Positions 5,862-47,491 of a stretch of 64,000 nt of DNA are shown here, piece after piece. The notes beneath the pieces were generated by a model, which saw only the letters and a program-made list of their open reading frames with translations, had not been told where the DNA came from and searched no databases. Where the stretch lies: contig NZ_BSTT01000002.1 of the NCBI RefSeq assembly GCF_030269685.1, positions 434,001-498,000 of the forward strand. Reading direction: 5' to 3'. Both the position numbers and the translations under genes were made by a program. Position 1 is the stretch's first letter, and each line of letters opens with the position of its first letter. This DNA comes from Actinomycetospora sp. NBRC 106378 (GTDB lineage Bacteria > Actinomycetota > Actinomycetes > Mycobacteriales > Pseudonocardiaceae).

Positions 5862-5909
5862 ACGTTAGGAAGACCGGACGCGCCGACCCATCCCCGAGCT
5901 CGGGGGTGG
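5862..5909 (-). promoter_or_regulatory. Palindrome promoter P1 upstream of the NlpC-like gene
   Basis: The palindrome at 5888-5909 has arms CCATCCCCG and CGGGGGTGG around an AGCT centre (one arm mismatch). On the gene strand it is followed after exactly 19 bp by CTAACG, giving a TANNNT-type -10 (TAACGT). The first three bases of this -10 are the TAA stop codon of the upstream gene. The same palindrome with the same 19-bp spacing occurs at 10604 and 47470, and with 28 bp at 7958. It places an operator over or just upstream of the -35 region, typical of an activator or repressor site; the regulator is unknown. Confidence 0.65.
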
Positions 5910-6587
5910 CGACGCGGATCGTGAGGACCCGCGGGCGAGTGCGAGCCGCACGGTGGGCGCGTCGAGCCCGGAGCTTGGGGCGATTCCCGACGACGGGTCC
6001 GCGAACCAGCGCCGGGACCCCTCCGGCCCCCAGAGCAGGACCAGGAGGACCGCCTTGGCCGGCAGGGCGACCACGACCAGGCCGATGGCGTCGAGACCGA
6101 AGGCACCGGCCAGGGCGACCGCGCCCGCGAGGTCCAGCACGTGCAGCGTCGTGAGCGTCGAACGGACCGACCGTCGTCCGGCTCCGATGCCGCGGAAGGC
6201 CCAGATGCCGACGGCGGCGCTCACGAGCAGCAACACCGAGAAGAGCACCAGCCACCGCGACAGGGCGGTGATCGTCGCCCCGGCGCCGTCGTCGTCGCCC
6301 GCGCGGGAGATGGCGTCCCCGAAGCGCGACCCGACGAAGGCGAACGCGAAGCCGCCGAGCGCCCACGCAGCGTCTCCGATGCCCCCGAGCACGATCAGGA
6401 CCCGCGCGGCGGTGATGGCCCCGGGTCGATGCAGCGGGGTCGGAGTAGGAAGGACCGCGCCCGGAGGAAGCCCGGCCGGAGCCGGATGAGGAGCAGCGGG
6501 GACGCGCTCCGACGGGCGGAGACCGCACTGGCCGCACCAGCCGTCTCCCGGTGCGGCGACGACCCGGCACCGCGGGCAGGCCGACAT
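5865..6587 (-). CDS. Zinc-ribbon membrane protein, four helices
   Basis: The 240-residue protein begins with a zinc ribbon, CPRC then CGQCG, followed by a Pro-rich linker and about four membrane helices (for example ITAARVLIVLGGIGDAAWAL and WLVLFSVLLLVSAAVGIWAF). The C-terminal 40 residues are Ser/Pro/Arg-rich. It starts 3 nt after the stop of the larger zinc-ribbon membrane protein, in the arrangement TGA-TCG-ATG, so the two are translationally coupled and may form one complex. The function is unknown; zinc ribbon plus membrane domains are common in actinobacterial proteins near Ser/Thr kinases. The last 15 codons overlap promoter P1 of the downstream gene. Confidence 0.65.
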   Translation of the reverse strand: MSACPRCRVVAAPGDGWCGQCGLRPSERVPAAPHPAPAGLPPGAVLPTPTPLHRPGAITAARVLIVLGGIGDAAWALGGFAFAFVGSRFGDAISRAGDDDGAGATITALSRWLVLFSVLLLVSAAVGIWAFRGIGAGRRSVRSTLTTLHVLDLAGAVALAGAFGLDAIGLVVVALPAKAVLLVLLWGPEGSRRWFADPSSGIAPSSGLDAPTVRLALARGSSRSASPPPSSGMGRRVRSS

Positions 6588-6590
6588 CGA

Positions 6591-7856
6591 TCAGGCCGGC
6601 TGGCCGTCGCGGCGGGTGTGCCGCCCGAGTGCGATCGGTGCGGTGATGGGATCGTCGGAGGCCGGGGCGGCCGCGACCGTGTCCTCCGGAGCCGCCTGTC
6701 GGCGGGTGTCCGGAGCCGGCAGCGGGCCCGACCGCGGGCCGGGTGTCATGGGCCGCGCGTTCGACAGGGGTGCGCCCCAGGCCGCCGACGAGAACGAGGA
6801 CGGTGCACCCGGGGCAGGCCCCCACGGTGCTGCCGGAGGCGAGAACGGTGGGGCCGCGGGAGCCGACTGCCTCGGGACAGGTGTCCCGGTGGCGGGGACC
6901 AGGGCGATCGCCTTCCGGTGCCACTCGTCCACGGCGGGGAGGGGGACGTCGCCGAAGTGGAGACGGGCGTCGGTCGGCACCCACAGCGGTGCGACGACCG
7001 CCGCGTGCACCACGAGCCCCACCAGCAGGGCACCCGCGCTGCCCGAGCCCGCGGCGGAGATGAGCAGGAGGAACGCGTCGATGCCCGCGACGACCGACAC
7101 GGCCAACCGCGCACCGCGATTCCCCGAGCCCAGGGCCCGGACCGTCCAGAACCAGAAGGCCGCGATCCCGAGGGTCGGCACGGCCAGCGCGATCATCGCG
7201 CCGCCGAAGGCCCCGAACAGCCCACCGACCAGCATCGTCGCCGAAGAACCGCCGGAGGAGGCGGCGCTCGAGCCGAGCGCGACGGTCCCGCCGACGAGCA
7301 TGGACAGTCCGATCAGGGCAGCGATCGATCCGAGCACCCCGGCGACGATCCGCACCAGCGCGACCGACACCGGTCCGCTGCCGGTGTGCCCGAAGGGACC
7401 GGTGAAGAAGGCCCGGGCCGACGGGCTGAGGACCAGCGTGCCGGCGGCGGCCACGCACGCCAGTGCGATGAGCACCCAGCCCGCCGTGGTCGCGAAGCCC
7501 ATCGCGAGGGCGAGCAGACCGACGGCGGTGACGACCGCGAGGGCCCGGGCGACGCGGCTACCGCGGTAGAGCCGGTGGGCGAGCAGGCCGAGGCCGACCG
7601 CGATCAGCATGGGTGGCAGGAGGAGGAAGAGCCCGGCTCCCTGCACGACGGCGACGAGCAACGTCAACACGGCCGAGCCGGCGAAGGTGCCGATGACGGC
7701 CCACAGCGGACCGGGGACGGCCTTGGCGCGGGCGCTCTCCGTGCCGATGCCGAGCACGGTGCCGGCCTGTCCACCCTGCACCCGGGCCCGGTGGCGGCAC
7801 TCGCTGCACCACTGACCCAGGGCCGGGCCCCGCCCGCACTCTCGACACCGCTCCAT
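6591..7856 (-). CDS. Zinc-ribbon polytopic membrane protein
   Basis: This 421-residue protein has an N-terminal zinc ribbon (CREC, then CSEC within the first 20 residues), about eight to ten membrane helices between residues 50 and 310, and a cytoplasmic Pro/Ala-rich C-terminal tail of about 100 residues. A short conserved stretch, WVPTDARLHFGDVPLPAVDEWH, follows the last helix. The gene is divergent from the Ser/Thr kinase at 8085. The intervening region carries the 22-bp palindrome and a second dyad, so the kinase and this membrane protein may be co-regulated. No enzymatic motif is visible. It is first in a coupled pair with the 240-residue zinc-ribbon protein. Confidence 0.65.
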   Translation of the reverse strand: MERCRECGRGPALGQWCSECRHRARVQGGQAGTVLGIGTESARAKAVPGPLWAVIGTFAGSAVLTLLVAVVQGAGLFLLLPPMLIAVGLGLLAHRLYRGSRVARALAVVTAVGLLALAMGFATTAGWVLIALACVAAAGTLVLSPSARAFFTGPFGHTGSGPVSVALVRIVAGVLGSIAALIGLSMLVGGTVALGSSAASSGGSSATMLVGGLFGAFGGAMIALAVPTLGIAAFWFWTVRALGSGNRGARLAVSVVAGIDAFLLLISAAGSGSAGALLVGLVVHAAVVAPLWVPTDARLHFGDVPLPAVDEWHRKAIALVPATGTPVPRQSAPAAPPFSPPAAPWGPAPGAPSSFSSAAWGAPLSNARPMTPGPRSGPLPAPDTRRQAAPEDTVAAAPASDDPITAPIALGRHTRRDGQPA

Positions 7857-7922
7857 CTCGTCCCCCTCGTCCGCACCGCATCCCCCGTGCGGTCGGCTAT
7901 CCGATCGCCCTGTCGGGTCCGG

Positions 7923-7979
7923 GCGTTAGCACCTTCGGTGCACGAAGGTCAGTTCAGCCATCCCCGAGCCCGGGGATGG
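7923..7979 (-). promoter_or_regulatory. Palindrome promoter P2 in the divergent kinase/membrane-protein region
   Basis: The palindrome at 7958-7979 has perfect arms CCATCCCCG and CGGGGATGG around a 4-base centre. On the minus strand CTAACG follows after 28 bp rather than 19. The extra space holds a second dyad at 7931-7949, ACCTTCG-5 nt-CGAAGGT. The site is about 60-100 nt upstream of the minus-strand gene and about 105 nt upstream of the kinase on the plus strand, so it could serve both. Confidence 0.55.
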
Positions 7980-8013
7980 CGGGCTCCTCCGGACCGGATT
8001 CCGGAGGTGCAAC

Positions 8014-8040
8014 ATCCGGCGTCCTCGCGGCGATGACGAC
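8014..8040 (+). promoter_or_regulatory. Start-proximal element shared with the gene at 11621
   Basis: The segment TCCGGCG, then CTCG, then CGGCGATGA recurs at 11552-11578. The conserved GATGA begins 53 nt before the start codon here and 51 nt before it at 11621. Such fixed spacing suggests a shared core promoter or transcription start. A separate dyad, ACGACGG/CCGTCGT (8041-8065), lies just before the ribosome site of the kinase gene and could mask it in RNA. Confidence 0.35.
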
Positions 8041-8084
8041 ACGACGGTGCGGGACGCGCCGTCGTGGGCGGGGGGAGAACGAAC

Positions 8085-9803
8085 GTGACCACTGCGCTGG
8101 GGGCGCCGGACGCGCCGCAGGCGATGCCGCCGGGATTCGTCGTCGGGCGGCTCCTGGGGCGCGGCGGGTCGGGCACGGTGTACGAGGCACGGCAGGTGTC
8201 CACCGGACGCACGATCGCGCTCAAGATTCTCGACCTCGACGCGGTGGGACCTGAGGTCCTGCGACGCTTCGGGCGCGAGCGCGCGGCGATGGGGGAGCTC
8301 GCCGGCCACCCGCACATCGTGTCGATCATCGACGCCGGGATGCACGCGGGACGCCCGTGGCTCGCGATGGACCTGTACCAGGGAGGCTCGCTCGCCCAGG
8401 TCGAGCGCCCGATCGATCCGTCGCAGGCGCTCTCGCTGCTGCACACGATCGGCGCGGCCCTGACCGCGGCGCACCACCGCGGGGTGCTGCACTGCGACGT
8501 CAAGCCGGGCAACGTGCTGATCAGTGCGTACGGGCAGCCTGCTCTGTCCGACTTCGGGATCGCGCGGATCGCGCTCGAGAGCCAGGGCTCGCGCATCGGC
8601 GGTTACACGCTCGACCACGTGCCGCCGGAGATCCTCCGCGGCGACCGGCCCACCGACCGCGGCGACGTGTACTCCCTCGCCACGACGCTCTTCCAGCTCC
8701 TCGAGGGCCGACCGCCCTTCCGGACCGCTGACGACGTGTCTGCCGTCAGCGTCATGCGTCGCATCGAGTCCGAGTCGCTCCCGGCCTTCACCCGCCGCGA
8801 CCTGCCGCGGGGGATGGCCGAGCTCATCGTCGGGATGACGGCCAAGGACCCGACGGTCCGGCCCACCGCGGCCGACGTCTCGACGCGGGCTGCGGACATC
8901 GCGGGTCACGCGAACCTGCCGTTGACCTCGGCGCTCCCGGTTCCGGCGCGCCCCCAGGCACAGGTGGCCACGGTCGGGCCCGCGGTCTCCAACCCGCCAC
9001 CCCCGCGGTACGGCCGGACCGGCCCGCCGTCGACCGCACCTCGGACCACCTCGTCCGACGCCGATGACGCCCCGACCAACGCGTTGCGTCAGGAGTCGCT
9101 GCACCGCGCGACGGCGGCAGCCGCACCACAGGGCGCCGCACCACCGCGGCGTCGGCGGTGGGGACGCATCCTCGGCGGTCTCGCCGCGCTGGTCGTCCTC
9201 GCGATGATCGGGGGCGGCATCGTGACGTGGAAGCTCATGCCGACCATCCAGTCGATGACCGGGACCGCGCCGACGGCGGCACCGACCACGACTGTTGCTG
9301 CGGCTCCGACGCCGGCCGCGCCCACCGTCGCCCCCGCAGCGCCGACGGCCGCACCGGCTGCGAGCGGGGTGCCGCCGCTCTACCTCGCGCAGGTGGAGGA
9401 GAACAGCTCCTCGTACAACCTGACCAAGCAGGGCTACGGCATCAGCGGCCAGTTCTACCCGCTGAGCATCAATGTCAGCAGCCCCATCACCAGCGACTCC
9501 TACGCCATCGACTACCTGCTCAACCGGCAGTACCGGTCGTTCAGCACGGTCTTCGGTGTGGCCGACGAGTACAGCGAGCTCAAGGAGTCCGGCGCCGTGC
9601 CGGCGACCTGCAGCGTGCAGGTGCTGCTCGACGATCGGCCGGTGGTCCCCCTCCGGAGCGCCAGGCGCAACGCGCCCATCACCTTGACCAACGTCGACGT
9701 CAGTGGCGGCACACGGCTGAGGTTGGTCGTGAGTCAGACCGGATCCGGTGGCGGGGCGAGCCCGTACCCCTGCACCTTCGGCAACCCCATGGTCAGCGGC
9801 TGA
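8085..9803 (+). CDS. Transmembrane Ser/Thr protein kinase with an extracellular NPCBM-like sensor
   Basis: The 572-residue protein has a kinase domain (about residues 17-280) with a glycine loop (GRGGSGTVY), catalytic Lys in IALKIL (K47), a catalytic loop reading HCDVKPGN (Asp near 138; the usual HRD Arg is Cys) and DFG near 156. APE is replaced by PPE. A Pro/Thr-rich linker leads to one membrane helix (about 363-385). The outside part is Thr/Ala-rich, then ends in about 130 residues resembling the NPCBM/NEW2 carbohydrate-binding fold (YAIDYLLNRQYRSFSTVFGV, later LRLVVSQTG). Lack of the HRD Arg suggests a kinase not controlled by activation-loop phosphorylation. It probably senses wall glycan. 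GTG 8085 is preferred because of the GGGGGGAGA site. Confidence 0.85.
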   Translation: MTTALGAPDAPQAMPPGFVVGRLLGRGGSGTVYEARQVSTGRTIALKILDLDAVGPEVLRRFGRERAAMGELAGHPHIVSIIDAGMHAGRPWLAMDLYQGGSLAQVERPIDPSQALSLLHTIGAALTAAHHRGVLHCDVKPGNVLISAYGQPALSDFGIARIALESQGSRIGGYTLDHVPPEILRGDRPTDRGDVYSLATTLFQLLEGRPPFRTADDVSAVSVMRRIESESLPAFTRRDLPRGMAELIVGMTAKDPTVRPTAADVSTRAADIAGHANLPLTSALPVPARPQAQVATVGPAVSNPPPPRYGRTGPPSTAPRTTSSDADDAPTNALRQESLHRATAAAAPQGAAPPRRRRWGRILGGLAALVVLAMIGGGIVTWKLMPTIQSMTGTAPTAAPTTTVAAAPTPAAPTVAPAAPTAAPAASGVPPLYLAQVEENSSSYNLTKQGYGISGQFYPLSINVSSPITSDSYAIDYLLNRQYRSFSTVFGVADEYSELKESGAVPATCSVQVLLDDRPVVPLRSARRNAPITLTNVDVSGGTRLRLVVSQTGSGGGASPYPCTFGNPMVSG

Positions 9804-9814
9804 GCCCGCGAAGC

Positions 9815-9858
9815 ACGACGAAGGCCCCGCGCCCGGGTGGACGCGGGGCCTTCGTCGT
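9815..9858. terminator. Bidirectional terminator between kinase and YbjN-like gene
   Basis: A perfect 17-bp stem (ACGACGAAGGCCCCGCG, 9815-9831, and its complement, 9842-9858) encloses a 10-nt loop. It lies between the convergent ends at 9803 and 9867, so it can stop transcription from both sides. There is no long U tract, as is usual in high-GC actinobacteria. Confidence 0.8.
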
Positions 9859-9866
9859 CGTGCTCG

Positions 9867-10256
9867 TCAGTGCGCGTCGACGAAGCTGACGCGGCGCTCG
9901 AGTTCGTCGGCCGATCCCGCGATGGCGTGCAGCGGGTACTCGAACTCCTCCACGCTCATGTCCTCGAGCGGGACGGCGTGGCGGAGGGTCACCATCCCGC
10001 CGACCAGGGACAGGCCGCCGCACACGAGCTTCTCGACCTCACGGAGCAGGACGACCAGGTCGACCTTGCGGAGCTCGCCGATCGGCGACTCGACGGTCGC
10101 GAAGCCCGCGCCCCCGTTGTTCTCTGCATAGCGCACGTAGATGAACTGACTGCGCCCGTCCTGGAAGTGGAAGAGCATCTTCACGAAGTCACCGTTGTCG
10201 GTGTCGACGCGGTAGTTGCCGTGCAGGTAGTTCCGCACATCGGTCCAGGTGGCCAT
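9867..10256 (-). CDS. YbjN/type III chaperone-fold-like hypothetical protein
   Basis: The 129-residue soluble protein (MATWTDVRNYLHGNYRV, then FHFQDGRSQFIYVRYAEN, then ESPIGELRKVDLVVLLREVE) alternates beta strands and helices as in the YbjN / type III secretion chaperone-like fold; this is a fold-level guess, not a clear motif match. The start is 1 nt after the stop of the Cys-rich mini-protein (TGA-C-ATG), so translation is coupled. No enzyme motif or signal is seen. A role as partner or adaptor of the mini-protein is inferred from this tight coupling. Confidence 0.6.
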   Translation of the reverse strand: MATWTDVRNYLHGNYRVDTDNGDFVKMLFHFQDGRSQFIYVRYAENNGGAGFATVESPIGELRKVDLVVLLREVEKLVCGGLSLVGGMVTLRHAVPLEDMSVEEFEYPLHAIAGSADELERRVSFVDAH

Positions 10257-10257
10257 G

Positions 10258-10407
10258 TCAGTTCCGCCATCCCTTGCCGTCGCAGGCCGCGCAGTGGCCC
10301 TTGCCGCGGCAGGAGCTACAGCTCGACGAGATGACACCGCCGTGCTTGCCGCTGCCGTGACAGATCGCGCAGACGCGGTGCCCGTTGCAGACGCGACAGG
10401 TCGCCAT
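10258..10407 (-). CDS. 49-residue DnaJ-like Cys-rich mini-protein (copy 2)
   Basis: This is the paralogue of the protein at 3533-3682: same length, same first residues (MATCRVC) and same last residues (GWRN). It has four CxxC knuckles (CRVC, CAIC, CSSC, CAAC) with the CxxCxGxG layout of DnaJ zinc modules. The ATG has a strong GGGAGGA site. It is the first gene of a pair with the 129-residue YbjN-like protein. The transcript probably starts near 10571, giving a leader of about 165 nt that contains the 34-nt element shared with the other cassette. Confidence 0.75.
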   Translation of the reverse strand: MATCRVCNGHRVCAICHGSGKHGGVISSSCSSCRGKGHCAACDGKGWRN

Positions 10408-10479
10408 GAATTCCTCCCGGGGTGAATGGTCGATCGACGGCGAGCGTGACCGACCCGTGATCCGGCGGGCAGGCCTTTT

Positions 10480-10551
10480 GGTCTACGGGCGAGAACGGTT
10501 CCCCGGAACCGGAGGAACCGGTCTACGGAACCCGTCCGCCGCGTAACGCGG
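10480..10551 (-). promoter_or_regulatory. Leader element shared with the 4.8 kb operon
   Basis: Positions 10518-10551 match 4872-4905 at 32 of 34 bases, including the CCGCGTTACGCGG dyad and CCGTAGACCGG (gene strand). A second TAGACC copy (CCGTAGACC) lies at 10480-10488. It sits between the palindrome promoter at 10578-10625 and the mini-protein gene, so here it is probably transcribed as part of the leader. Confidence 0.5.
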
Positions 10552-10577
10552 AGGCCCGGACCCGCCGTCGGGAAGGA

Positions 10578-10625
10578 ACGCTAGGAGGAAGGGCGTGGCG
10601 GTCCCATCCCCGAGCTCGGGGATGG
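10578..10625 (-). promoter_or_regulatory. Palindrome promoter P3 upstream of mini-protein copy 2
   Basis: The palindrome at 10604-10625 is perfect over 22 bp: arms CCATCCCCG and CGGGGATGG around AGCT. On the gene strand CTAGCG follows after exactly 19 bp, giving a -10-like TAGCGT. The 19-bp spacer resembles that of the 47.5 kb promoter (both begin GACC and keep CACGCC). It drives the 10407-9867 pair. Confidence 0.65.
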
Positions 10626-10634
10626 GATTCGGGC

Positions 10635-11474
10635 TCAGAGGTAGGTGCGGGGATCTGCCCGTACGTCGACCATCGCCTCGGCCGCCGCGGCCTCGATCAT
10701 GCGGACGCCGAGCCACCGACCGTCGCGGAGCCGGGCCAGGTAGTCGGTCGCCCCACCGTCCCGCCGGACCTGGTCGTCGGCGATCTCGGAGTAGGCGTAG
10801 CGCCATACCTGGGGTCGGCTGTCGCGCGGCGACCAGCCGGCGAGCCACAGGCGGTCGTGGGTCATCGCGAACACGACGCTGCCCAGCACGTCGTTCGACG
10901 GGCTCAACCAGGCTCCTTCGGCCGCGCCCATGATCGCGGTGCGGTTGCTGTGCGCGTCGGTGAGGGCACGGTCGAGGACGTCGGAGACCGCCGAGTTCCG
11001 CCGCAGCGCCTCCTCGGCGAACAGGCGGCGCTTCGCCGCGCCCGAGGGGTACGGCACCCGCCCGCCGAAGCGGGGCTGCAGGTCGGCGGCCTGTTCCTGC
11101 GCGGTGTTCCCGACGATCGGCAGGATGTCCGGCACGTCTTCCGGCGGCACCCAATGGTCGAACGTCCGGGTCTCGAAGTCGAGGTCGAAGCCGTCGCCCT
11201 CGGCATAGAGGTAGAGGGAGCCGAGCTTGAACATGGTCGCCTCTAGGGCGACGTGCCGGAACAGCGCGGGACCCTCGGCGAGGTCCTGGAGGATCGGCGC
11301 GCGCATCGTGACCAGCGTGAGGTCGCCGACCGGCTCCGACGTCACGGCCACGTGCGTGGTGCCGAACGGCACGATGATCACGCCGACGGGGTTGACGTAG
11401 ACGCCCTCGAACCGGCCGCGGAGCGCAGACGCGACCGCCGCGCCGAAGGGGCCGTTGGCCGGGGGAGTGGTCAC
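10635..11474 (-). CDS. Hypothetical two-domain protein (YbjN-like plus AAEGAWLSP domain)
   Basis: The 279-residue protein has an N-terminal alpha/beta part (VGVIIVPFGTTHVAV, later ATMFKLGSLYLYAEG) that may have a YbjN/chaperone-like fold. Its C-terminal part of about 85 residues (GAAEGAWLSPSNDVLG, FAMTHDRLWLAGW, ADDQVRRDGGATDYLARL, DGRWLGVRM) is clearly related to the C-terminus of the 423-residue protein at 42907-44178. The shared part has the strand pattern of a small beta domain such as a bacterial PH-like fold; this is inference. The GTG start follows GGAGG. It is divergent from the zinc-ribbon gene at 11621. The function is unknown. Confidence 0.6.
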   Translation of the reverse strand: MTTPPANGPFGAAVASALRGRFEGVYVNPVGVIIVPFGTTHVAVTSEPVGDLTLVTMRAPILQDLAEGPALFRHVALEATMFKLGSLYLYAEGDGFDLDFETRTFDHWVPPEDVPDILPIVGNTAQEQAADLQPRFGGRVPYPSGAAKRRLFAEEALRRNSAVSDVLDRALTDAHSNRTAIMGAAEGAWLSPSNDVLGSVVFAMTHDRLWLAGWSPRDSRPQVWRYAYSEIADDQVRRDGGATDYLARLRDGRWLGVRMIEAAAAEAMVDVRADPRTYL

Positions 11475-11551
11475 AGGGCCTCCGCACGCTCGGGGATCGG
11501 GTCGGTCAGCCCGTCGGGCCGGACGGTCTATTCGTTAGCGGCCGGTGTCAC

Positions 11552-11578
11552 GTCCGGCGCTCGTCCGGCGATGAGCAC
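11552..11578 (+). promoter_or_regulatory. Start-proximal element shared with the kinase gene at 8085
   Basis: This matches 8014-8040 (TCCGGCG, CTCG, CGGCGATGA) at nearly the same distance from the start codon. Just upstream, at 11524-11540, GGTCTATTCGTTAG combines the GGTCTA and CGTTAG words seen in the other regulatory regions, but no palindrome follows. Confidence 0.35.
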
Positions 11579-13367: not shown

Positions 13368-15446
13368 TCAGTCGACGTCGACAGTCGCGTGCTCGATGAG
13401 CTCGGCGAGCATGGCGGAGTCGATGTGCCGGTTGCCCGCCGCGCGACCCTTGTCGTCGAACGTGACCCCCTCGGCCTCCAGCATCGTGCGTGGTGACGCA
13501 TCGTTCGACGGGTCGAGCCAGACGAAGTCGGGGGAGACCATGCCGCCGGCGCGGAGGACCCGGTGAGGGTTCGGGGTGGCCACGGTGGCGAGGCGCGTCC
13601 CGACGACCCGCGCGATGACGCCGAGCAGGGCCGCGAGATCGCCGTAGGTCGTCCAGTGACCCGCGGGGACATGCGCCAGCGCTTCATTGAGCAGGTCCCA
13701 CCGGACGCCGTCGTCGGAGGGCCCCGGCGCGGGGGTGGAGGAGGGTCCGGGCCAGGTCGCCGCGACCAGGTCCGCGAGGGCGAGCGAGCGCTGGGTGATC
13801 TCCTCGCGTCCCCAGGTCTCGTGCTTCGCGATGTCCTGGTTCATCCGCACGCCGCTCTGCGCGAGCAACTGTCGCTTCGCGGGGAACGGGTTGTTGCTCA
13901 GAGTGGCGTTGTAGCCGGTCAGCGTCAGGTTGCCGAGGGTGTGGACGAGGCTCTGGTGGAGCTGCCCGATCGACTCGTCGTCGTGCCCCTCGTCGCGGGC
14001 GAGTTCGGCGCTCCACGCCGGTGTCAGCGTCTGCGGGAGGACGTGCTCGATCGTGAGCTTGGCGGTGTCGACCGGCTCCTTGCTCCCGTACGTCTCCTCG
14101 ATCCAGGCCAGCACCAGGAACTTCTGCCGCGGTCGGCCGTGGAGATAGAAGGGGATGGCGGGGAGTCCGGCGCGGAGGTCCTCGTCCGTCGCGAAGTGCT
14201 TCCTCCCCGTCGACAGGTACTCGAGCACCGCGACGTCCACGGCGGCGTCCTGGTCCATCTCCTTCGCGGCGTCGAGGAGGATCCGGTTGAGACCGGCCGT
14301 CGCCCGGCCGACCAGGAGCCGGCGGACCAGAAAGCTCTCGATGGTGAGGAGCGCACGGGCCACCTCGTCGGAGGTCGCCGTGCCCGCGTCGCGCTGCGAG
14401 AGCAGGTGCAGCTGGAGGGGCCGCACAGTCGTCGTGCCCCACTCGTTCAGGCGGGCGAGCCGCTGCCTGACGTCGGGATGGGGTTCCGACGTCGGGTCGA
14501 GCATCGTCCTGAGCAGGGTGCCGAGCACGGACCATCGCGTCACCTCGGCCTCGATGGCCTCCTCGGTCTTCAGACCGTCGAGCCGGGCCTGCTGGCGTGA
14601 GTAGGTGTCGCTCTGCTTGATGCGGGGATCGATCTGGACGAGGTCGAGCCAGAACAGCAACTCGAGGTCGTCCGGGCTCAGCGAGTCCTGGAGGGGCTTC
14701 CAGAGGCTCGTGTAGACCGACGGGCCGCGGTCCGGCATCCGCATGAAGACGTAGTTCCGCAGCAGGTCGCCCTGCGTGAGCTTCAGACCGGTGTTGTTCA
14801 GTGACTCGAAGATGCGGTGGGCATTGTCGCCGGGTTGCGCGGTGACCGACACCAGCGCGAGACCGGAGGTGAGGGCCTCCTCGACGTCCTCGGCCGAGAG
14901 TTCGGGGGCTTCCGCCGCGAGATTGAGCAACTTCCCCTGGAAGAAGCGGAAGGCGCTGCCGATCCGGTCCACGCCGCCGGCGTTCGGGGTGGAGTAGAGG
15001 ATCGCTTCGTAGGACGGGCGGTCCGCCTGCGTCGGCGCCAGCTTGGCCTTCTGTTCGTGCTTCTTCGCCCACTTGTTGACGAGGAAGTGGTCGGAGATCC
15101 GCTCCGCGTGCTCGGGTGACTCGTGAGCACCCCGGTGGTCGCGGACGGCGCAGAGCAGCACCGAGAGGGTCGTCAGACGCTGCTGCCCGTCGACGACCAG
15201 GAATTCCTGCACTCCCGTCGGGCCGTTGCTCGGACTCGGAGCCAGCACGAGGGAGCCGATGAAGTGATCCGCCTTGGCATCCTTGAGCCGATCGATCGCG
15301 ACCTTGACGATGTCCTTCCACAGGCGGTCCAACTGAGCGTCCGTCCAGGAGTACGTCCGCTGGTACAGCGGAATCTGGTACTGGATCGAGGCCTGTAGCA
15401 GTTCCTGGATCGTCGTCTCCCTGGCAGCGACCACTTCTACCCCCAT
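13368..15446 (-). CDS. DUF262-DUF1524 (GmrSD-type) nuclease fused to an alkyltransferase-like domain
   Basis: The 692-residue protein has the DUF262 motifs in order: LYQRTYSW near residue 28, VVDGQQRLTTL near 85, and IFESLNNTGLKLTQGDLLRN near 230. These form the NTP-binding/hydrolysing part in GmrS/SspE-like proteins. The DUF1524 HNH-like nuclease follows (IEHVLPQ near 465, then LGNLTLTGYNATLSN). An unusual C-terminal domain (about 600-690) resembles O6-alkylguanine transferase-like proteins: PAGHWTTYGDLAALLG, then NPHRVLRAGG. The active-site PCHR Cys of true methyltransferases is replaced (NPHR), so it would bind rather than repair DNA. A modified-DNA restriction role is likely. ATG 15446 removes an unrelated-looking extension. 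Confidence 0.8.
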   Translation of the reverse strand: MGVEVVAARETTIQELLQASIQYQIPLYQRTYSWTDAQLDRLWKDIVKVAIDRLKDAKADHFIGSLVLAPSPSNGPTGVQEFLVVDGQQRLTTLSVLLCAVRDHRGAHESPEHAERISDHFLVNKWAKKHEQKAKLAPTQADRPSYEAILYSTPNAGGVDRIGSAFRFFQGKLLNLAAEAPELSAEDVEEALTSGLALVSVTAQPGDNAHRIFESLNNTGLKLTQGDLLRNYVFMRMPDRGPSVYTSLWKPLQDSLSPDDLELLFWLDLVQIDPRIKQSDTYSRQQARLDGLKTEEAIEAEVTRWSVLGTLLRTMLDPTSEPHPDVRQRLARLNEWGTTTVRPLQLHLLSQRDAGTATSDEVARALLTIESFLVRRLLVGRATAGLNRILLDAAKEMDQDAAVDVAVLEYLSTGRKHFATDEDLRAGLPAIPFYLHGRPRQKFLVLAWIEETYGSKEPVDTAKLTIEHVLPQTLTPAWSAELARDEGHDDESIGQLHQSLVHTLGNLTLTGYNATLSNNPFPAKRQLLAQSGVRMNQDIAKHETWGREEITQRSLALADLVAATWPGPSSTPAPGPSDDGVRWDLLNEALAHVPAGHWTTYGDLAALLGVIARVVGTRLATVATPNPHRVLRAGGMVSPDFVWLDPSNDASPRTMLEAEGVTFDDKGRAAGNRHIDSAMLAELIEHATVDVD

Positions 15447-20258: not shown

Positions 20259-21180
20259 ATGATTCACCGGCCTGCGGGCGGGGCCTGGGTCGTCGGCGCC
20301 CTGGGCGTCGTGACGCGAGCCGTCGCCTCCCGCACCCCGCGCTCGGTGCGCTGGCGGCAGGCCTCGTCCTGCTCGGGGTGGCCGAGGCCGGCGGGGCCTT
20401 CATGCCGCCGTCGCTCGCCGCGCTGAGCCCGCTCTTCTCCGGCGCGGGTCTCGTCGCCGTGGTCGTCGTGCTGTGGGGAAGTCTCGGGCTGGCCCGCCGG
20501 GCCCTGTTCGTGCTCGACGACGAGCAGGCGTCCCAGGAGGAGGAGCTGCGCCGCGCGGAGCAGCAATTGGCCCGGGCCGAGGCCCGCGACCACGACCTCC
20601 GCAACGGCCTCGCCGGGCTCGCCTCGGCGGCCGCCGTCATGGGTGGCGGCCGCCGAGGCGAGCCCGGCTGAGCCACGTGGTCGCCGACGAGCTCCGCCGT
20701 CTCGACGACCTCCCCCAGGGGCACACGGGCGACGATTCGCCGGACGCGCGGGGCCGCTACGCGGTGGCCCCCGCGCTCGAGGGCCTGGTGATGCTGCGGC
20801 GCAGCGCGGGACTGGACGTCCGGGCCGACGTGGAGCCCGACCTCCATGCCGTCGGATCGCCCCGCACCCTCGCCCAGGTCGTCACCAACCTGCTCTCGAA
20901 CGCCGCTCGGCACGCTCCGGGCAGCCCGGTCCGCATCACGGCCGTCACCCGCGACGGCTCGGCGGAGATCCGCGTCCGCGACTTCGGGCCCGGGATCCCG
21001 CCCGGGCAGGAGCGGGCCGTGCTCGAGCGGGGTGTCCACGACGCGAGCGCGGGCGGGCTGGGGCTCGGTCTGCACCTCTGCCAGACCCTGCTCGCCGCGG
21101 AGGACGCCGCCATCGAGGTCAGCGCGACCCGACACCAGGTGCCGGGCTGCGAGGTGCGCCTGGTCCTCCCGGCGTCGTGA
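20259..21180 (+). pseudogene. Sensor histidine kinase, frameshifted
   Basis: Two or three frames must be joined. From ATG 20259 one frame gives a hydrophobic start (GGAWVVGALGVVTRAV); a second gives a membrane segment (LGALAAGLVLLGVAEA, LVAVVVVLWGSLGLA), a coiled coil and a HDLRNGLAGL region with the likely phospho-His. After about 20660 a third frame gives RLSHVVADELRRLDDL and the ATPase: NLLSNAARHAPG (N box), VRDFGPGIP (G1) and GGLGLGLHLC (G2). The frame that contains the phospho-His stops at TGA 20669-20671. A one-base indel at about 20640-20670 would restore it. The stop overlaps the start of the response regulator (GTGA), so the pair forms a two-component system. It may be decayed or mis-assembled. 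Confidence 0.65.
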
Positions 21181-41050: not shown

Positions 41051-41071
41051 TGGTTCCCCCCAAGGAACGGA

Positions 41072-42020: not shown

Positions 42021-42395
42021 GGAACCCCCAGGGAAGAGATGACACGGCAGTGCCCCGCGCATTCGATGTGCGGCTTTCCGCGAGACAGAGCGGGCGTGCC
42101 GTGAGATCAGTCGTCTTCCTTGAGGATGTGGTTACCGAATCAGGCGGTCTTCACCCGCTTGGAGCAGTGTGGTCGTCACGTGGAGGAACGTTCAGTCAGT
42201 CGTCTGGGCAAGGACTGCGGGTTCCCTTTCGCCCGTCCGGTCTCGCGGAGTACGTGCCCGAACTCATCGTGGTCTTGGGGACGGGGACGATGCCTCAGAA
42301 CGAGGAACTGCCCTGCTCGCGATGGTGGTGGGCGGGTGGGCCTCAGCCGCATCCGCGCGAGCACCTCACGGAGCGCGAACTCGAACGGCTTTGAC

Positions 42396-42568
42396 GCCGA
42401 GAGCGTCGTGATCTTGATCCTGCTGAGGAGCTCGAGTTCCGCGACTGCCGAATTCCTTGAGCCGCGCGGGCCGGGCCGCCGGGGTCCCGCATGCGCTGCA
42501 GAGGGCGTCACCGACATCGGCCTGGCGGAGCAGGAGCCGCAGGCCGTGCCGGTCGCCGGGACCGTCAT
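42396..42568 (-). pseudogene. Possible remnant of a small zinc-ribbon protein
   Basis: From ATG 42568 one frame gives TACGSCSA; after a frame change the next gives RQADVGDALCSACGTPAARPARLKE. Joined, they read as a CxxC-15-CxxC zinc ribbon like those of the membrane proteins at 6.6, 7.9, 11.6 and 12.6 kb, without a membrane segment. The evidence is short and could be chance; I keep it because the same ribbon family is abundant in this window. Confidence 0.3.
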
Positions 42569-42757
42569 CGCGCCGTTACCGAATCCGTGGTCGCAGTCCG
42601 CCGGAAGCATGGAGCAACTGAGATGGCCCTCTGTGTCGTCGTCCTTGGCGAGGAGGAGTGGCGAAGGGTCAATTGGTCGTCCTGGGGGGACGTTCCGTGA
42701 TCGTGAACGGGCGAAGTCTCGTACGGCCGGTGGGCCGCGCCGAGGCGCACCGGGCGG

Positions 42758-42801
42758 ACATAGACCGACGCGGGTCCCGGATCTCCGAAACCGGTCTATG
42801 T
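42758..42801. promoter_or_regulatory. Perfect inverted repeat with TAGACCG arms
   Basis: ACATAGACCG (42758-42767) and CGGTCTATGT (42792-42801) are exact complements separated by 24 nt. The arm contains the same TAGACCG word found twice each in the leaders at 4.8 and 10.5 kb. It lies about 105-150 nt upstream of the gene at 42907 and could be an operator or an RNA hairpin. Confidence 0.5.
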
Positions 42802-42906
42802 GCCGACCGATCGGTCGACACACGGTCCAAACCGGGCCCCGGTCCATGTCGTTCTCTGTTCGGATGCCGGGAGCCGTGGGCGTTGTCGGCGGAGGGTGGG
42901 GGACGG

Positions 42907-44178
42907 ATGAGTCGGTCGATGTCGGACGCACAGGTGGCGGTCGGGATCCGGGCGGTCGCGCTGGCGTCCGCCTTCCTCGTCCGCAAGCTCCGGGACCCGG
43001 AGTTCCTGGCGACCGCGGCCGGCGAGGAGGAGGACGCCCCGGTCATGGTGTCCGGGCCCCCAGCGACCGAGCCCGCGGTGGACGCCGACCGGGGCGGACG
43101 GTTCCGGTCCATCGTGAAGCGAGGCGGCGAACTCGCGAGGCAGGGCGGCGGTTACGCGCGGCAGGGCTTCGAACGCTGGGCCGCGGCTCGTCCGGGCACG
43201 CCCGCGTGGGAGGCCGCCGGACTCGATCAGCGCTGCGACTGGTGGTTCGCCAACCTGGGCCGGGCGACCTCCGTGCTCGCCGCACTCCCCGGACTGACCG
43301 GCGCCGCGGGGGACCGGATTCCCGTCCGTGACCTGGTCTCCGCAGCGGGACAGGGGCTGTTGCTCGTGGCGATCGCGCTCGAGTACGGGATCGAGGACAC
43401 CGATGACCACGTCGCGCTGATCGGAGAGATCCTCTTCGGACGCCAGTTGGATGCCGCCGGGCAGGTCTCGGCCGCTCGGGACGAGGCCGACGAACTCGCC
43501 GTCGGCGCGACCCGTCGGGACGCCGGCCGCCGGGCGCAGGCGGCGGCACTCGTCCGGATCGGTCGGACGCTCAGCCAGCTCGAAGCGGAGCTCGGCAAAC
43601 GGCCCCAGGGGCACCCCGGGCAGCGGTTGGTCGGTGCCCTGCCCGGGGTGGGTGTGATCGGGCACTACCGGGGTGAGCGGCGCGGACTGGAGGTCGTGTC
43701 CGAGCAGGGCCGGGCGTGGTGTGCGGCGCGACGCGCATCCCGCGGTGCCATCGAGGTCCCCGGACTCCCGTCACGGTCGGCCGTGGTCAGCCCCCGCGTG
43801 ATCGCGGCGCCGCTGTTCGAGCACCGCGGGATCGCACGGCGCGCGCTCGACGGCGTCCCCGGCGCCGATGGTGCGCTCGTCGTCGGGGCCGCCGAAGCGG
43901 CCTGGCTCTCCCCGGGAGACGCCGTCCTGACCGAGATCGTTCTCGCGGTGACCCCGACCGACCTGCGCATCGCCGGACGGTCCGGGATGCGGCCCGACCC
44001 GATGGTCTGGACCTTCCTCCACCCCCATCTGGCGGACGATCACGTGCGCCGGGACCGCGGGGTTCTCGACTTCGTCGCACGCATTCCCGACGGCCGTTGG
44101 CTCGGGATCCGCCTGCTCGATCCCGAGAGCGGCGAGGCGATCCGCGAGGCCCGGGCTTCCGCGGTGGCCGCCCGCTGA
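42907..44178 (+). CDS. EcsC-like hypothetical protein with AAEGAWLSP-type C-terminal domain
   Basis: The 423-residue protein has a middle part (CDWWFANLGRATSVLAALPG, IPVRDLVSAAGQGLLLVAIALEYGI, about residues 95-180) resembling EcsC-type amphipathic helical domains. The C-terminal part of about 85 residues (GAAEAAWLSPGDAVLT, LAVTPTDLRIAG, ADDHVRRDRGVLDFVARI, DGRWLGIRL) is clearly related to the end of the protein at 10635-11474. No signal or catalytic motif is visible. The ATG follows GGTGGGGGACGG. The shared C-terminal domain ties the two signalling blocks together; the function is unknown. Confidence 0.6.
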   Translation: MSRSMSDAQVAVGIRAVALASAFLVRKLRDPEFLATAAGEEEDAPVMVSGPPATEPAVDADRGGRFRSIVKRGGELARQGGGYARQGFERWAAARPGTPAWEAAGLDQRCDWWFANLGRATSVLAALPGLTGAAGDRIPVRDLVSAAGQGLLLVAIALEYGIEDTDDHVALIGEILFGRQLDAAGQVSAARDEADELAVGATRRDAGRRAQAAALVRIGRTLSQLEAELGKRPQGHPGQRLVGALPGVGVIGHYRGERRGLEVVSEQGRAWCAARRASRGAIEVPGLPSRSAVVSPRVIAAPLFEHRGIARRALDGVPGADGALVVGAAEAAWLSPGDAVLTEIVLAVTPTDLRIAGRSGMRPDPMVWTFLHPHLADDHVRRDRGVLDFVARIPDGRWLGIRLLDPESGEAIREARASAVAAR

Positions 44179-44187
44179 CTTCCGCCT

Positions 44188-44343
44188 TCACACGGGCAGG
44201 ATCGCGTGACGGTCCATGAGGTGGGCGGTCATGGCGATGGCCGCGTCCGACGGCGAGGACGAGGAGCCGCCACTCGACCGGAAGGCGACGACGAGCCCGA
44301 TCCCGAGCACGACGAGCAGCAGGACCATGACGAGGACGAGCAC
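44188..44343 (-). CDS. 51-residue single-pass membrane protein
   Basis: The small protein consists of one membrane helix (VLVLVMVLLLVVLGIGLVVAF), a Ser/Gly-rich stretch and a short tail (AAIAMTAHLMDRHAILPV). GTG 44343 is preceded by GGGAG at good spacing. It is convergent with the gene ending at 44178 and divergent from the HTH membrane protein at 44560. I do not recognise a family; a role as a membrane anchor or regulator of a neighbour is conceivable. Confidence 0.5.
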   Translation of the reverse strand: MLVLVMVLLLVVLGIGLVVAFRSSGGSSSSPSDAAIAMTAHLMDRHAILPV

Positions 44344-44559
44344 GGGGACTCCCGGAGGATCGGTTCGCGGGCATTCATGGAATTGCAGCTGTGCGTGGGG
44401 TCGCCGACAAAGGCGACGAGAATCGACACTTCGTGGACGTACCGGACATAGTCGCTGGTTAGGCGCCGTCGGGACGGATTCCGGCCTACTGGCTGCAAGA
44501 TCGAGAAGGCGTCGGTCTATCGTCGTCCCCGTCGGACAACGTCCTGGGGGGGACACTTC

Positions 44560-45564
44560 GTGCCACGACCGCAGCGCCCGCTCGACCCTGATGGCGGCGT
44601 ACTCGCACAGTTCGCCACAGAACTGCGAACATTACGAGAACGTGCGGGCTCACCGAAATTCGTCACCATGGCGCGCCGCGTCGGACGTTCGAAGAGCACG
44701 CTCGCGGAGGCCGTCGGCGGACGGCACCTCCCGCGATGGGACACGGTCGTCGACTTCGTGCGCGCCTGCGACGGCGACCCGGCCGAGTGGCGCCCGCTGT
44801 GGGAGCGCGTGCGGACCGAACTCGCCGAGATGGCACCGCAGGCGGTCGACCCGGACCCCGACGCAGGGGCCGAGGTCGAGACGCCGCCCGAGCCGCTCGT
44901 GGAGCCCGTTGTCGAGCCGGAGCCCGTTGTTGTCGAGCCCGAGTCTGCGGTCGAGCCGGTGGCCCCAATGGCCCCGGAGGCCGAGAGCGAGGCCGATGTC
45001 GAGCCCGAGGTCGAGGCTGCGCCGGCTCCGGCCGAGCCGGTCGTCCTCCCGCAGCCACGCCGCCGCCGAGCGATGCTGCTCGCGGCCGTCGTCGTGCTGT
45101 GCGCGCTCGTCGGCGTCGCGGGCTTCGTGCTCGGGCGCTGGAGTGATCTCGGGCCGCAAGGCCCCGCGGTCCGCGCGATCGAGGTGCAGAACAAGGTGGC
45201 GCTGGGACCGGACCGACTCGTCGAGGACCGCACGCCCGCCTACCTGTCCACCATCCCGATCTCCTACTGCGCGGTGACCGACCGCAGCTGCAAGGTGCCG
45301 GGCACGGAGATGCAATCGGGGGCCGGCCTCGTCGCGCACTGCGTGGTGCACGGGCAGGAACTGCACAACTACAACCTCGACGAGGTCGCCGCCTGGTCGA
45401 ACCCGGACCGCTCGGACTCGGACCTGTGGTACCGGGCATCCTTTCCCGACGGACGGATCGGGTATATCTCGGAGGTCTACCTGACGTCCTCGAGCCGAGG
45501 GGGACTCGGCCTCGCGGACTGTGCTCCTGGCGCGTCCGTCGACCGCGCCGGCGGCGCCGGGTGA
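44560..45564 (+). CDS. HTH-like single-pass membrane protein with extracellular SH3-like domain
   Basis: The 334-residue protein has the actinobacterial N-terminal XRE-like domain (FATELRTLRERAGSPKFVTM, RVGRSKSTLAEAVGGRHLP, DTVVDFVRACDGDPAEW; residues 15-85). An acidic Glu/Pro/Val-rich linker, one membrane helix (about 170-193, AMLLAAVVVLCALVGVAGFV) and an outside SH3-like domain follow (ISYCAVTDRSCKVPG, VAAWSNPDRSDSDLWYRA, DGRIGYISEVYL). It has the same plan as the protein at 17421 with a different sensor. A possible promoter reads GCAAG-15 nt-GGTCTA ending near 44519. The GTG start follows a G7 run. Confidence 0.7.
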   Translation: MPRPQRPLDPDGGVLAQFATELRTLRERAGSPKFVTMARRVGRSKSTLAEAVGGRHLPRWDTVVDFVRACDGDPAEWRPLWERVRTELAEMAPQAVDPDPDAGAEVETPPEPLVEPVVEPEPVVVEPESAVEPVAPMAPEAESEADVEPEVEAAPAPAEPVVLPQPRRRRAMLLAAVVVLCALVGVAGFVLGRWSDLGPQGPAVRAIEVQNKVALGPDRLVEDRTPAYLSTIPISYCAVTDRSCKVPGTEMQSGAGLVAHCVVHGQELHNYNLDEVAAWSNPDRSDSDLWYRASFPDGRIGYISEVYLTSSSRGGLGLADCAPGASVDRAGGAG

Positions 45565-45574
45565 TCAGGTGGGG

Positions 45575-46396
45575 TCAGGGCCGAGAGCTCCTTGCCATCT
45601 CCGTGATCCGCGGATCGGACACTTCCCACCATGACTTCAAGGCCATGAGGCCGCCCAGCCCGGTCGCGGTGAAGGGGACACCCCCGTCGTCGGTAGCGCG
45701 CAGCGCGGTGGACATCGTGACCGCGGCCTCGCCGATCAGATCGATCGTCGCCTCGATCATCGTCCGGGCGCCCGGGCCGTCGACGAACTGGCAGGGATCG
45801 AAGAGACGCTCGCACATGATGGCGGCCTCACCGTCGCACTCGATGACGTAGGGGGCGCCGATCCCCGCGGTCGTCCGCCACCGACTGACGAAGCGGTAGA
45901 GCTCGAGTGAGGGGCGGCTGCGGATGCGAGCAGCAGAGAAGATGCTGAACGACCACCGCGTCTCCCCGCCGCCCCACACGCAGATGCCCACGCGTGCGTC
46001 GCCGGTGCTGTAGAGGAAGGAACCCGGGAGTTCGTCGTCCTCGAACAGGTCATCGCCTTCCCGTGCGCGTCTGTCGCCGAAGCTGCGGATCATCCTGAGG
46101 ACCTCGCTCTTCAGGAGCGGAGCATCGACGCGGGTGCGGGCCGGCGGCTGTGGCGCCTGAATCGGAGGTGGCTCGGGCGCGAGAATGGCGTCGACGGTGG
46201 TGCCCAGTTGCCCGGCCAGAGTTCTCAGGGCGGCGGAGCTCATCCGCTCCTTCATGCGGGCCGACTCCAGGGCGGACTCCGCGTCGCGGACCTCACGCCG
46301 CCCTTGGGCCGCCTGCCATGCGCGTTCGGCGTCGCGCACGGCTTGCTGCACGAGTTCGTGACCTGCTTTCGCTTCCTCGCGTGAGAAACCCTGCAC
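45575..46396 (-). CDS. Coiled-coil plus YbjN/type III chaperone-like protein
   Basis: The 273-residue protein starts with a long charged helix (about residues 5-70, EEAKAGHELVQQAVRDAERAW), a Pro-rich hinge, and a C-terminal domain with the YbjN/chaperone-like pattern: RWSFSIFSAARI, LELYRFVSRWRTTAGIG, AAIMCERLFDPCQF, IEATIDLIGEAAVTMSTAL. YbjN-like domains occur in bacterial sensory and chaperone proteins. The GTG start has an AGGGGGGATC site. It is downstream of the Gly/Asn-rich membrane protein by 18 nt and probably in the same operon. Confidence 0.65.
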   Translation of the reverse strand: MQGFSREEAKAGHELVQQAVRDAERAWQAAQGRREVRDAESALESARMKERMSSAALRTLAGQLGTTVDAILAPEPPPIQAPQPPARTRVDAPLLKSEVLRMIRSFGDRRAREGDDLFEDDELPGSFLYSTGDARVGICVWGGGETRWSFSIFSAARIRSRPSLELYRFVSRWRTTAGIGAPYVIECDGEAAIMCERLFDPCQFVDGPGARTMIEATIDLIGEAAVTMSTALRATDDGGVPFTATGLGGLMALKSWWEVSDPRITEMARSSRP

Positions 46397-46414
46397 GATC
46401 CCCCCTGTTGATAC

Positions 46415-46861
46415 TCAGAATCCGTTGGGAAAGAGGTTGCCCCCGCCGCCATCCCCGTTGGGGCGATTCCCGTCGTCCCCGTTGTTCCCGCCGTCGCCGT
46501 TGTTGCCGCCGTTGTTGCCGCCCTCGCCATTGTTGCCACCACTGCCGCCGGAGGTGGGGCCGTTGCCGGGCGCCGCGGTCGTCCGAGCGGGTGCGGGCCT
46601 CGGAGCCGGAGCGACGGGACGAGCTGGGGTGGTCGGCGTAGCTCGGGAACGAGGAATCGCTACCGCGTCGAGCGCCGGACTCGCGACGGTCGTCGGCACC
46701 ACGGTGACGATCGGCGCAGGAGGTGGAGCCGGTGGAAGGGAGGCCGACGTCGCCGCCGGCAGCGGCGCGAGCTCGGCATCGATCGGCCAGAGCAGAGCCG
46801 CGAGGATCGCGAGGACGGCGACACCAGTGCCGATCCAGGTCAGCAGGACGCTACGGGTCAC
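46415..46861 (-). CDS. Single-pass membrane protein with a Gly/Asn-rich repeat tail
   Basis: The 148-residue protein has one membrane helix at the start (TRSVLLTWIGTGVAVLAILAALLW cut into residues 2-25), a Pro/Ala/Thr-rich outside linker, and a tail of about 50 residues made almost only of Gly and Asn (GGNNGEGG, GGNNGGNNGDGG) ending NLFPNGF. The start GTG 46861 overlaps the DUF2690 stop (GTGA) and has a strong GGAGG site. Such tails are typical of wall-associated or self-assembling proteins; no specific family is recognised. Confidence 0.65.
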   Translation of the reverse strand: MTRSVLLTWIGTGVAVLAILAALLWPIDAELAPLPAATSASLPPAPPPAPIVTVVPTTVASPALDAVAIPRSRATPTTPARPVAPAPRPAPARTTAAPGNGPTSGGSGGNNGEGGNNGGNNGDGGNNGDDGNRPNGDGGGGNLFPNGF

Positions 46862-47436
46862 GGAGTACCTCCAGCGGTGGAACGACTCGGCAGGACCGCG
46901 CCGTCGACCGGCACGACCACGGCGTGCACGGGTCCGTCGGCCATGATCATCGACGTCACGCCGTGGACGACCCGTCCGCTCGCCACGACCGGCAGCTCCT
47001 GACGGGTGCCGCCCTCGATCGCGACCTCCGCCACCGGCGCCGACGCGTCGAGCGTGTAGCGGGCCCAGGCGGTGCCGCACGCCCCCGAGGCGCGGACCTC
47101 GAGCATCCCGATCGGCACCTCCAGGCGCCCGCGCTGCGTCGTGACCACGCGGCTGGTCACCGTCTGCGCGTCGTCGGCGCAGCGGCTGGTCGAGGGGTCG
47201 GCCCCGACCAGCGAGTCCCGAGCCGCCGGCAACGGCGCCACCGGCGTGGCGCCCGAGCCCAGCGCCACGGCACCGATCGCTCCCACCAGGCCGAGCGCGG
47301 CCAGTCCACCCAGCCACACCCGGCGTCGGGAAGGAGCGGTGACCGCGGCGGTGAACGGTGCCGTCATCGTGGAGGGCAGCGCGGTCGTCGCGAAGGACTC
47401 CGGGGCGGAGCGGCGGGCGGGCGTGGTCAGCGTCAT
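46858..47436 (-). CDS. DUF2690 membrane protein
   Basis: The 192-residue protein has a cytoplasmic N-terminus, one membrane helix (residues 42-60, VWLGGLAALGLVGAIGAVAL) and an outside DUF2690 domain with paired Cys: DPSTSRCADDAQTV near 82, GMLEVRASGACGTAWARYTL near 112. DUF2690 domains are usually C-terminal to XRE or kinase domains in actinobacteria. The transcript is probably leaderless: the -10 TAACGT ends 7 nt before ATG 47436, and the 22-bp palindrome lies 19 bp further up. Confidence 0.75.
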   Translation of the reverse strand: MTLTTPARRSAPESFATTALPSTMTAPFTAAVTAPSRRRVWLGGLAALGLVGAIGAVALGSGATPVAPLPAARDSLVGADPSTSRCADDAQTVTSRVVTTQRGRLEVPIGMLEVRASGACGTAWARYTLDASAPVAEVAIEGGTRQELPVVASGRVVHGVTSMIMADGPVHAVVVPVDGAVLPSRSTAGGTP

Positions 47437-47443
47437 GAGGCGA

Positions 47444-47491
47444 ACGTTAGGAACATCGGCGTGCGGGTCCCATCCCCGAGCTCAGGGGTGG
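47444..47491 (-). promoter_or_regulatory. Palindrome promoter P4, leaderless, upstream of the DUF2690 gene
   Basis: The palindrome at 47470-47491 (arms CCATCCCCG and CAGGGGTGG around AGCT or its neighbour) is followed after exactly 19 bp by CTAACG. The -10 TAACGT (47444-47449) ends 7 nt from the ATG, as in classic actinobacterial leaderless promoters. This anchors the TAACGT word as a -10 in the whole group. The upstream gene stops 4 nt before the palindrome. Confidence 0.7.

Follow-up and report, generated by a model that had tools for sequence, protein, structure and literature searches.

The question raised by this locus is which protein recognizes a 22-bp palindrome that lies close to −10 boxes at four places in a stretch of Actinomycetospora sp. 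NBRC 106378 (contig NZ_BSTT01000002.1, positions 434,001 to 498,000; the window, 64,000 nt in all), and which genes that protein controls. In our judgement the chances are about two in three that the palindrome serves as operator for a dimeric, kinase-coupled activator with a small local regulon. The candidate activator, encoded at 47495-48292, is predicted to combine an FHA domain with a helix-turn-helix (HTH)-like domain. The site, its spacing, its co-occurrence with and adjacency to this gene, and the FHA fold of the model can all be read directly from the sequence.

The palindrome has the consensus CCATCCCCGAGCTCGGGGATGG and occurs at 5888, 7958, 10604 and 47470, with 0-2 mismatches in each copy. 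These positions had been proposed in an earlier note on this DNA, and they withstood closer scrutiny, as none of 100 dinucleotide shuffles of the window contained a match. When the genome in its entirety (6.3 Mb, completeness 98%) was searched for random copies at up to three mismatches, only the four sites of the window were found. The central tetramer, given in the earlier note as AGCT throughout, has that sequence in sites 1, 3 and 4; site 2 has AGCC. On the minus strand each palindrome is followed by a −10 box, with gaps to CTARCG of 19, 28, 19 and 19 nt for sites 1 to 4 respectively, which agrees with the earlier claim of a 19-bp gap at three sites and of 28 bp with an extra dyad at the other. 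The gap at site 2 exceeds the others by 9 bp, or about one helical turn, and this 28-bp spacer (7930-7957) contains a second imperfect dyad, read by eye, that is possibly a second operator. The −10 boxes had been described as being of the TANNNT type, and those of sites 1, 3 and 4 are; the box of site 2, TAACGC, does not end in T.

Relatives were sought in a panel of 100 genomes, of which 18 belong to the genus Actinomycetospora (the source genome included) and 82 do not. At up to three mismatches, the palindrome is found in eight of the 18 genus genomes, which carry 17 sites. Outside the genus it was matched in 10 of the 82 genomes, in every case at exactly three mismatches, and a reversed control was matched in three of the 100. 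If the gap in CGGGGATGG...CTARCG is left free between 16 and 32 nt, there are 15 matches in nine genus genomes, 13 of them at a gap of exactly 19 nt, against eight matches for the reversed control. The exact composite site, CTCGGGGATGG-N19-CTARCGT, is present in 13 copies in eight of the 18 genus genomes, and no exact copy appears among the matches listed for 279 other genomes of the family. One additional site, in G005, has CTAGTG at 19 nt. Two further matches, in G012 (gap of 16 nt) and in G023 (palindrome with three mismatches), look like chance and were put aside. Composites with mismatches numbered six in the genus against 13 in the reversed control, and by hand count about 116 against about 109 in the rest of the family; as these are control levels, no further degenerate members can be claimed. 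The rarity of the element in the genome and the recurrence of the composite site across the genus support the view, advanced in the earlier note, that it is a promoter element of a small regulon joining two gene blocks about 37 kb apart.

The proposed regulator gene ends beside site 4. It is present in seven of the 18 genus genomes, and among the 15 genus genomes of good quality it is present in exactly the seven that carry the exact composite site (one-sided p = 1.6e-4 for gene-site co-occurrence, uncorrected for kinship). The gene for the FHA-ABC transporter that overlaps it does not track the site in this way, being found in seven of the eight genomes with the site and in eight of the 10 without.

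Relatives of the regulator outside the genus also have palindromes nearby. The protein is 42% identical to a relative in Pseudonocardia sp. TRM90224, 40% to one in P. spinosispora and 37% to one in G080, a genome from another family. At one mismatch or fewer, the core CCCCYGN4CRGGGG, a pattern set after the TRM90224 sites had been seen, occurs four times in 57.7 kb of these three loci (three copies being exact), always within 570 bp of the gene. In other, partly overlapping loci, the same core gave a background of four matches in 132 kb and four in 143 kb, none of them exact. In TRM90224, two sites flank the regulator gene and the 9.4 Mb genome has no other exact copy, although the pattern was built from these two. 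The first of them is followed by TACCAT at 27 nt; the second, which lies ahead of a kinase gene, is followed by TATCGT at 20 nt, precisely the spacing seen in the window. The site in P. spinosispora has TAACAA 19 nt on, one base nearer than expected. In G080, a perfect palindrome stands 119 bp upstream of the regulator match and is the sole exact copy of CCAYCCCCGN4CGGGGRTGG in that genome; no TANNNT occurs within 60 bases on either side of it. A gene for a Ser/Thr kinase lies near the regulator relative in all three outgroups. Another palindrome, at position 1189 of the P. spinosispora locus, had seemed relevant at first, but by eye it belongs to a longer stem where a gene ends and we discounted it; repeat searches of the two Pseudonocardia loci yielded nothing useful.

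That the operator belongs to some other regulator, the FHA gene only travelling with it, is in our view unlikely. Such a regulator might be encoded beyond the window or might be one of two proteins within it, the NarL regulator at 21177 and the HTH_31 protein at 44668, both of which have recognized HTH domains; moreover, the gene block is linked, so that co-occurrence alone picks out no single gene. The NarL regulator had been the suggestion of the earlier note, which called it LuxR-type. Its gene is present in seven of the 18 genus genomes, three of the eight with sites and four of the 10 without, and since its presence does not follow the site we rejected it as the binder. No homologue of the HTH_31 protein was detected (tblastn, E 1e-6) in 13 loci (L037-L049) around the sites of seven other genomes, a search that was confined to these loci and did not extend to the whole genomes. 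The palindrome family, on the other hand, stays beside the FHA gene in the three outgroup genomes. Judged by these comparisons, the FHA protein, which the earlier note did not name, is the better candidate than the NarL regulator for binding the site.

The position of the palindrome relative to the gene start bears on how a bound protein might act. At site 4 only seven bases separate the −10 box (47444-47449) from the ATG at 47434-47436, as had been reported before. In five genomes (G000, G002, G016, G009 and G013) the ATG of the DUF2690 gene lies 33-34 nt past the palindrome, so that transcription probably starts at the ATG and the palindrome would be centred at about −44.5. With the start placed at 47436, this is probably the position of an activator that overlaps the −35 region, and it corresponds to a class II-type geometry in which a symmetric operator at −41 to −45 replaces the −35 element at fixed spacing. 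No clear −35 hexamer was found by eye at these promoters. The overlap with the −35 region would also suit a repressor that blocks RNA polymerase, and regulators of this kind can act either way; we nevertheless regard repression by the FHA protein as distinctly unlikely, because no −35 hexamer good enough for polymerase to act alone is seen by eye, the exactness of the spacing fits an activator, and the offset of site 2 is close to a helical turn.

Alignment of 14 of the sites with 19-bp gaps gave mean identities of 94% for the palindromes, 91% for the −10 octamers and 45% for the spacers, figures that are partly a product of how the sites were chosen. The alignment leaves out, from the 17 genus sites, site 2, one G016 site that lacks CTARCG (G016:C65:191803) and the G009:C12 site with three mismatches. 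The half of the palindrome next to the −10 box is invariant and the far half varies, again partly owing to site selection: the invariance of the proximal half and of the −10 box is partly built into the free-gap search pattern, whereas the relatives search at up to three mismatches used the palindrome alone. Constancy of these two parts at a fixed spacing is what might be expected if GGGGATGG were the −35 element and CTARCGT the −10 element of an alternative sigma factor, for instance of the extracytoplasmic function (ECF) type. We consider this improbable. A sigma factor would have no need of the second inverted arm, yet each of the 14 aligned sites retains 8-11 of its 11 dyad pairs, and one site would require a gap of 28 nt. 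TANNNT is the −10 element of housekeeping promoters, and that most of the boxes fit it also counts against a sigma factor of another type. Furthermore, no sigma factor gene was recognized among the 30 Pfam-scanned open reading frames (ORFs), a scan that left the rest of the genome aside. That the palindromes act in RNA, as terminator or attenuator hairpins at gene ends, is hardly credible. Although sites 1, 3 and 4 overlap the stop codon of a gene running in the same direction or come shortly after it (site 1 lies within the 3′ end of ORF 5865-6587, which is upstream), six sites stand between diverging genes (site 2 and one each in L037, L038, L042, L044 and L046) and the fixed distance to the −10 box would be left unexplained.

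The FHA domain of the proposed activator is clear in the full-length predicted model, which has a predicted local distance difference test (pLDDT) score of 81.5. In VIA the top match has Z 11.9 at 1.8 Å over 93 residues, and at least 50 of the rows are of the FHA type; Foldseek gave E 7.8e-5 for this part, and a profile comparison matched FhaA at E 0.0013. The Pfam cut-off for FHA is reached by the TRM90224 relative only. FHA domains bind phosphothreonine through the Arg of a GR motif, the Ser and Arg of SRxH and the Asn of NG, and the residues equivalent to the first three (R29, S44 and R45) are invariant in 10 homologues. Modelled alone, the C-terminal domain is all helical with a pLDDT of 93.2. 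Its top VIA match is the HTH domain of VqmA, with Z 6.1, below the trust level of the method, and a root-mean-square deviation of 2.4 Å over 62-63 residues, in a tie with MukE (Z 5.8). A role in DNA binding is likely for this protein, for which the modelled fold is no proof.

Several known systems offer comparison. The VqmA match and a symmetric operator near −44 recall regulators of the LuxR/NarL type, and GGGGATGG presumably has some likeness to the MalT box. Unlike proteins of that type, however, which have a receiver, PAS or ATPase part, the regulator has an FHA domain, and the Pfam GerE model found no match in seven homologues at E values up to 1, although HMMER filters may drop weak ones. 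In mycobacteria, according to one report (PMC4601284), the FHA regulator EmbR is phosphorylated by the Ser/Thr kinase PknH with involvement of the FHA domain, which stimulates its binding to the promoter of envelope genes. Control of an FHA transcription regulator by a kinase is what we propose here from sequence. In EmbR an OmpR-type DNA-binding domain stands at the N-terminus, a BTA domain is also present and the FHA domain is C-terminal, whereas in the window regulator the FHA domain is N-terminal, the presumed DNA-binding domain is C-terminal, helical and different, and Pfam detected neither an OmpR-type winged HTH nor a BTA domain. As both the domain order and the DNA-binding domain differ, it is not an EmbR/SARP protein. 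The gene block from 53403 to 48289 pairs a Ser/Thr kinase with an FHA-ABC transporter, as does the PknF-Rv1747 operon (PMC3908365); in the window, by contrast, the regulator gene and an operator follow directly, and the transporter gene also occurs in genomes that lack these. A wider group of actinobacterial FHA proteins, in which the C-terminal part is helical (L077-L097), shares the N-terminal FHA domain followed by a stretch of the LCEPRLRDP type. Most of them have no Pfam match in the C-terminal part, and weak HTH_36 or Sigma70_r4 matches occur there in four of the eight scanned. Their matches to the regulator profile, however, end at positions 106-203 of 268, and 18 of the 21 matching genomes match only partially. 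Our searches of open-licence papers brought up no description of this site, protein or regulon.

Under the reading that we favour, the FHA protein would bind the palindrome as a dimer through its C-terminal HTH-like domain, with CCCCYGN4CRGGGG as the core of the site. Positioned near −44, the activator would stand in for a −35 element and recruit RNA polymerase to promoters at which only a −10 box of the TARCGT type is recognizable. The regulon switched on in this way would comprise the DUF2690 membrane protein, the CHAP-like protein and the zinc-ribbon proteins, both membrane and mini-proteins; in related species it would also take in genes that include Ser/Thr kinases or lie next to them. 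The activator is itself most likely controlled, through its putatively phosphothreonine-binding FHA domain, by one or both of the Ser/Thr kinases of the locus (51955-53403 and 8085-9803). The former, relatives of which lie near the regulator in the outgroups, is the likely kinase of the circuit.

The earlier note described the four targets as envelope or unknown genes. This description suits the CHAP-like, zinc-ribbon membrane, Cys-rich and DUF2690 proteins, but Ser/Thr kinase genes also adjoin sites. The CHAP match of target 1 (Pfam E 1.8e-4, from the in-frame stretch 4910-5839) lies under the gathering score, target 2 has no Pfam match at E 0.01, and target 3 is followed by an ORF of 129 amino acids (9867-10256) that likewise has none. 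DUF2690 genes stand at sites in G002, G009, G013, G014 and G016, and apparent membrane proteins do so in G014 and G016. Genes for kinases of the NPCBM type adjoin sites in G000, G014 and G016, and one G016 site precedes a small secreted-looking protein and then a DUF4333-type kinase gene; the kinase genes beside sites in these three genomes point to kinase signalling, beyond the envelope alone.

Some observations weigh against this reading. The genome G013 (59% complete) has the site and no match for the regulator gene, the genomes that have the gene may all stem from one lineage, and the linkage of the gene block, noted above, keeps co-occurrence from singling out the regulator gene. Outside the genus, TANNNT stands at the expected distance at only one of the four sites. 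Among 394 genomes of the class, G593 and G774 encode more distant full-length relatives, and no exact core palindrome was found in 33 kb of the former or 32 kb of the latter. Nothing resembling the site was conspicuous in either locus. The two loci together have four single-mismatch cores, and one of these, in G774 at 581 bp from the gene and without a −10 box, may be due to chance. In the FHA domain the usual Asn is replaced by His66 and SRxH reads SRxA, which makes phosphopeptide binding uncertain. For the C-terminal domain neither profile comparison nor Foldseek gave a significant match (the best had E 1.6), and with a Z score of 6.1, under the VIA trust level, HTH is one reading of its fold. 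We infer that the protein binds DNA, that it activates rather than represses, where transcription starts and that phosphorylation exerts control.

A more elaborate arrangement, which we think rather doubtful, would be a self-contained circuit in which a membrane kinase activates the FHA activator, this turns on the DUF2690 membrane protein, and the phosphorylated tail of the latter docks on the FHA domain, sequestration at the membrane providing feedback. The N-terminal tail of the DUF2690 protein carries a Thr/Pro motif in which R9, S10, P12, T17, P21 and T23 are invariant in an alignment of six orthologues, and its R-S-x-P...T pattern is a possible docking motif for a kinase or FHA domain. 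If such a circuit existed, the activator would be of a new DNA-binding type, and the related actinobacterial FHA proteins would represent parallel circuits with operators of their own. Actinobacteria are rich in Ser/Thr kinases and FHA proteins, but to our knowledge there are few examples of a kinase linked directly to a promoter. Here an unannotated FHA family gains a candidate operator, a promoter geometry and a list of targets with which a pathway from kinase to gene becomes testable, and looking next to the gene for a palindrome that recurs may reveal the operators of related regulators.

Table 1. Palindromes, −10 boxes and genes of the proposed regulon in the window.
Feature	Position	Strand	Basis or remark
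Palindrome site 1	5888-5909	−	10 of 11 dyad pairs
Palindrome site 2	7958-7979	−	Between diverging genes for a membrane protein (−) and a Ser/Thr kinase (+)
Palindrome site 3	10604-10625	−	Perfect 22-bp dyad
Palindrome site 4	47470-47491	−	3 bp past the stop codon of the proposed regulator gene
−10 box of site 1, TAACGT	5862-5867	−	CTAACG 19 bp from palindrome
−10 box of site 2, TAACGC	7923-7928	−	CTAACG 28 bp from palindrome
−10 box of site 3, TAGCGT	10578-10583	−	CTARCG, gap of 19 nt
−10 box of site 4, TAACGT	47444-47449	−	Gap of 19 nt; 7 nt before ATG; probably leaderless
Target 1, CHAP-like protein, signal-peptide-like start	4910-5803	−	Putative in-frame GTG start at 5803
Target 2, zinc-ribbon (by eye) membrane protein	6591-7856	−	ORF; followed by ORF 5865-6587
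Ser/Thr kinase carrying an NPCBM domain, divergent from site 2	8085-9803	+	Pfam Pkinase 3e-42, NPCBM 2e-8
Target 3, 49-residue CxxCxGxG-type mini-protein (DnaJ zinc-finger-like by eye)	10258-10407	−	ORF
Target 4, DUF2690 protein, one apparent membrane span (by eye)	46858-47436	−	Pfam DUF2690 5e-9
Proposed regulator, 265 residues, FHA domain (~7-118) and helical HTH-like C-terminal domain (~138-265)	47495-48292	−	Models, profiles
FHA-FHA-ABC transporter, overlapping the regulator gene	48289-50670	−	Pfam; also in genomes without the site
Further product of this gene block, with a single apparent membrane span (by eye)	50731-51822	−	Pfam scan, no family
Ser/Thr kinase with DUF4333 domain	51955-53403	−	Pfam Pkinase 3e-46, DUF4333 5e-10

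A comparable set of genes is found around one of the more distant relatives. In G774 (C7:41296-46514) the regulator relative shares a stretch of 5 kb with genes for an FHA-ABC protein and a Ser/Thr kinase, which lie 1.3-4.4 kb from it; in G593 no kinase of the window type was present within the 33 kb examined. Elsewhere in the window, the minus strand encodes a GmrSD-type (type IV restriction) protein (13368-15434), with a C-terminal match to the DNA-binding domain found in O6-methylguanine methyltransferases, and a protein of 1474 amino acids with an HSP70 domain at residues 588-1149 (53506-57930), whose gene adjoins that of the DUF4333 kinase. Two small ORFs on the plus strand (58199-58806) appear by eye to form a pair of an AbrB-type antitoxin and a PIN-type toxin, and homologues of this pair lie about 2.2-2.8 kb from a site in G014.

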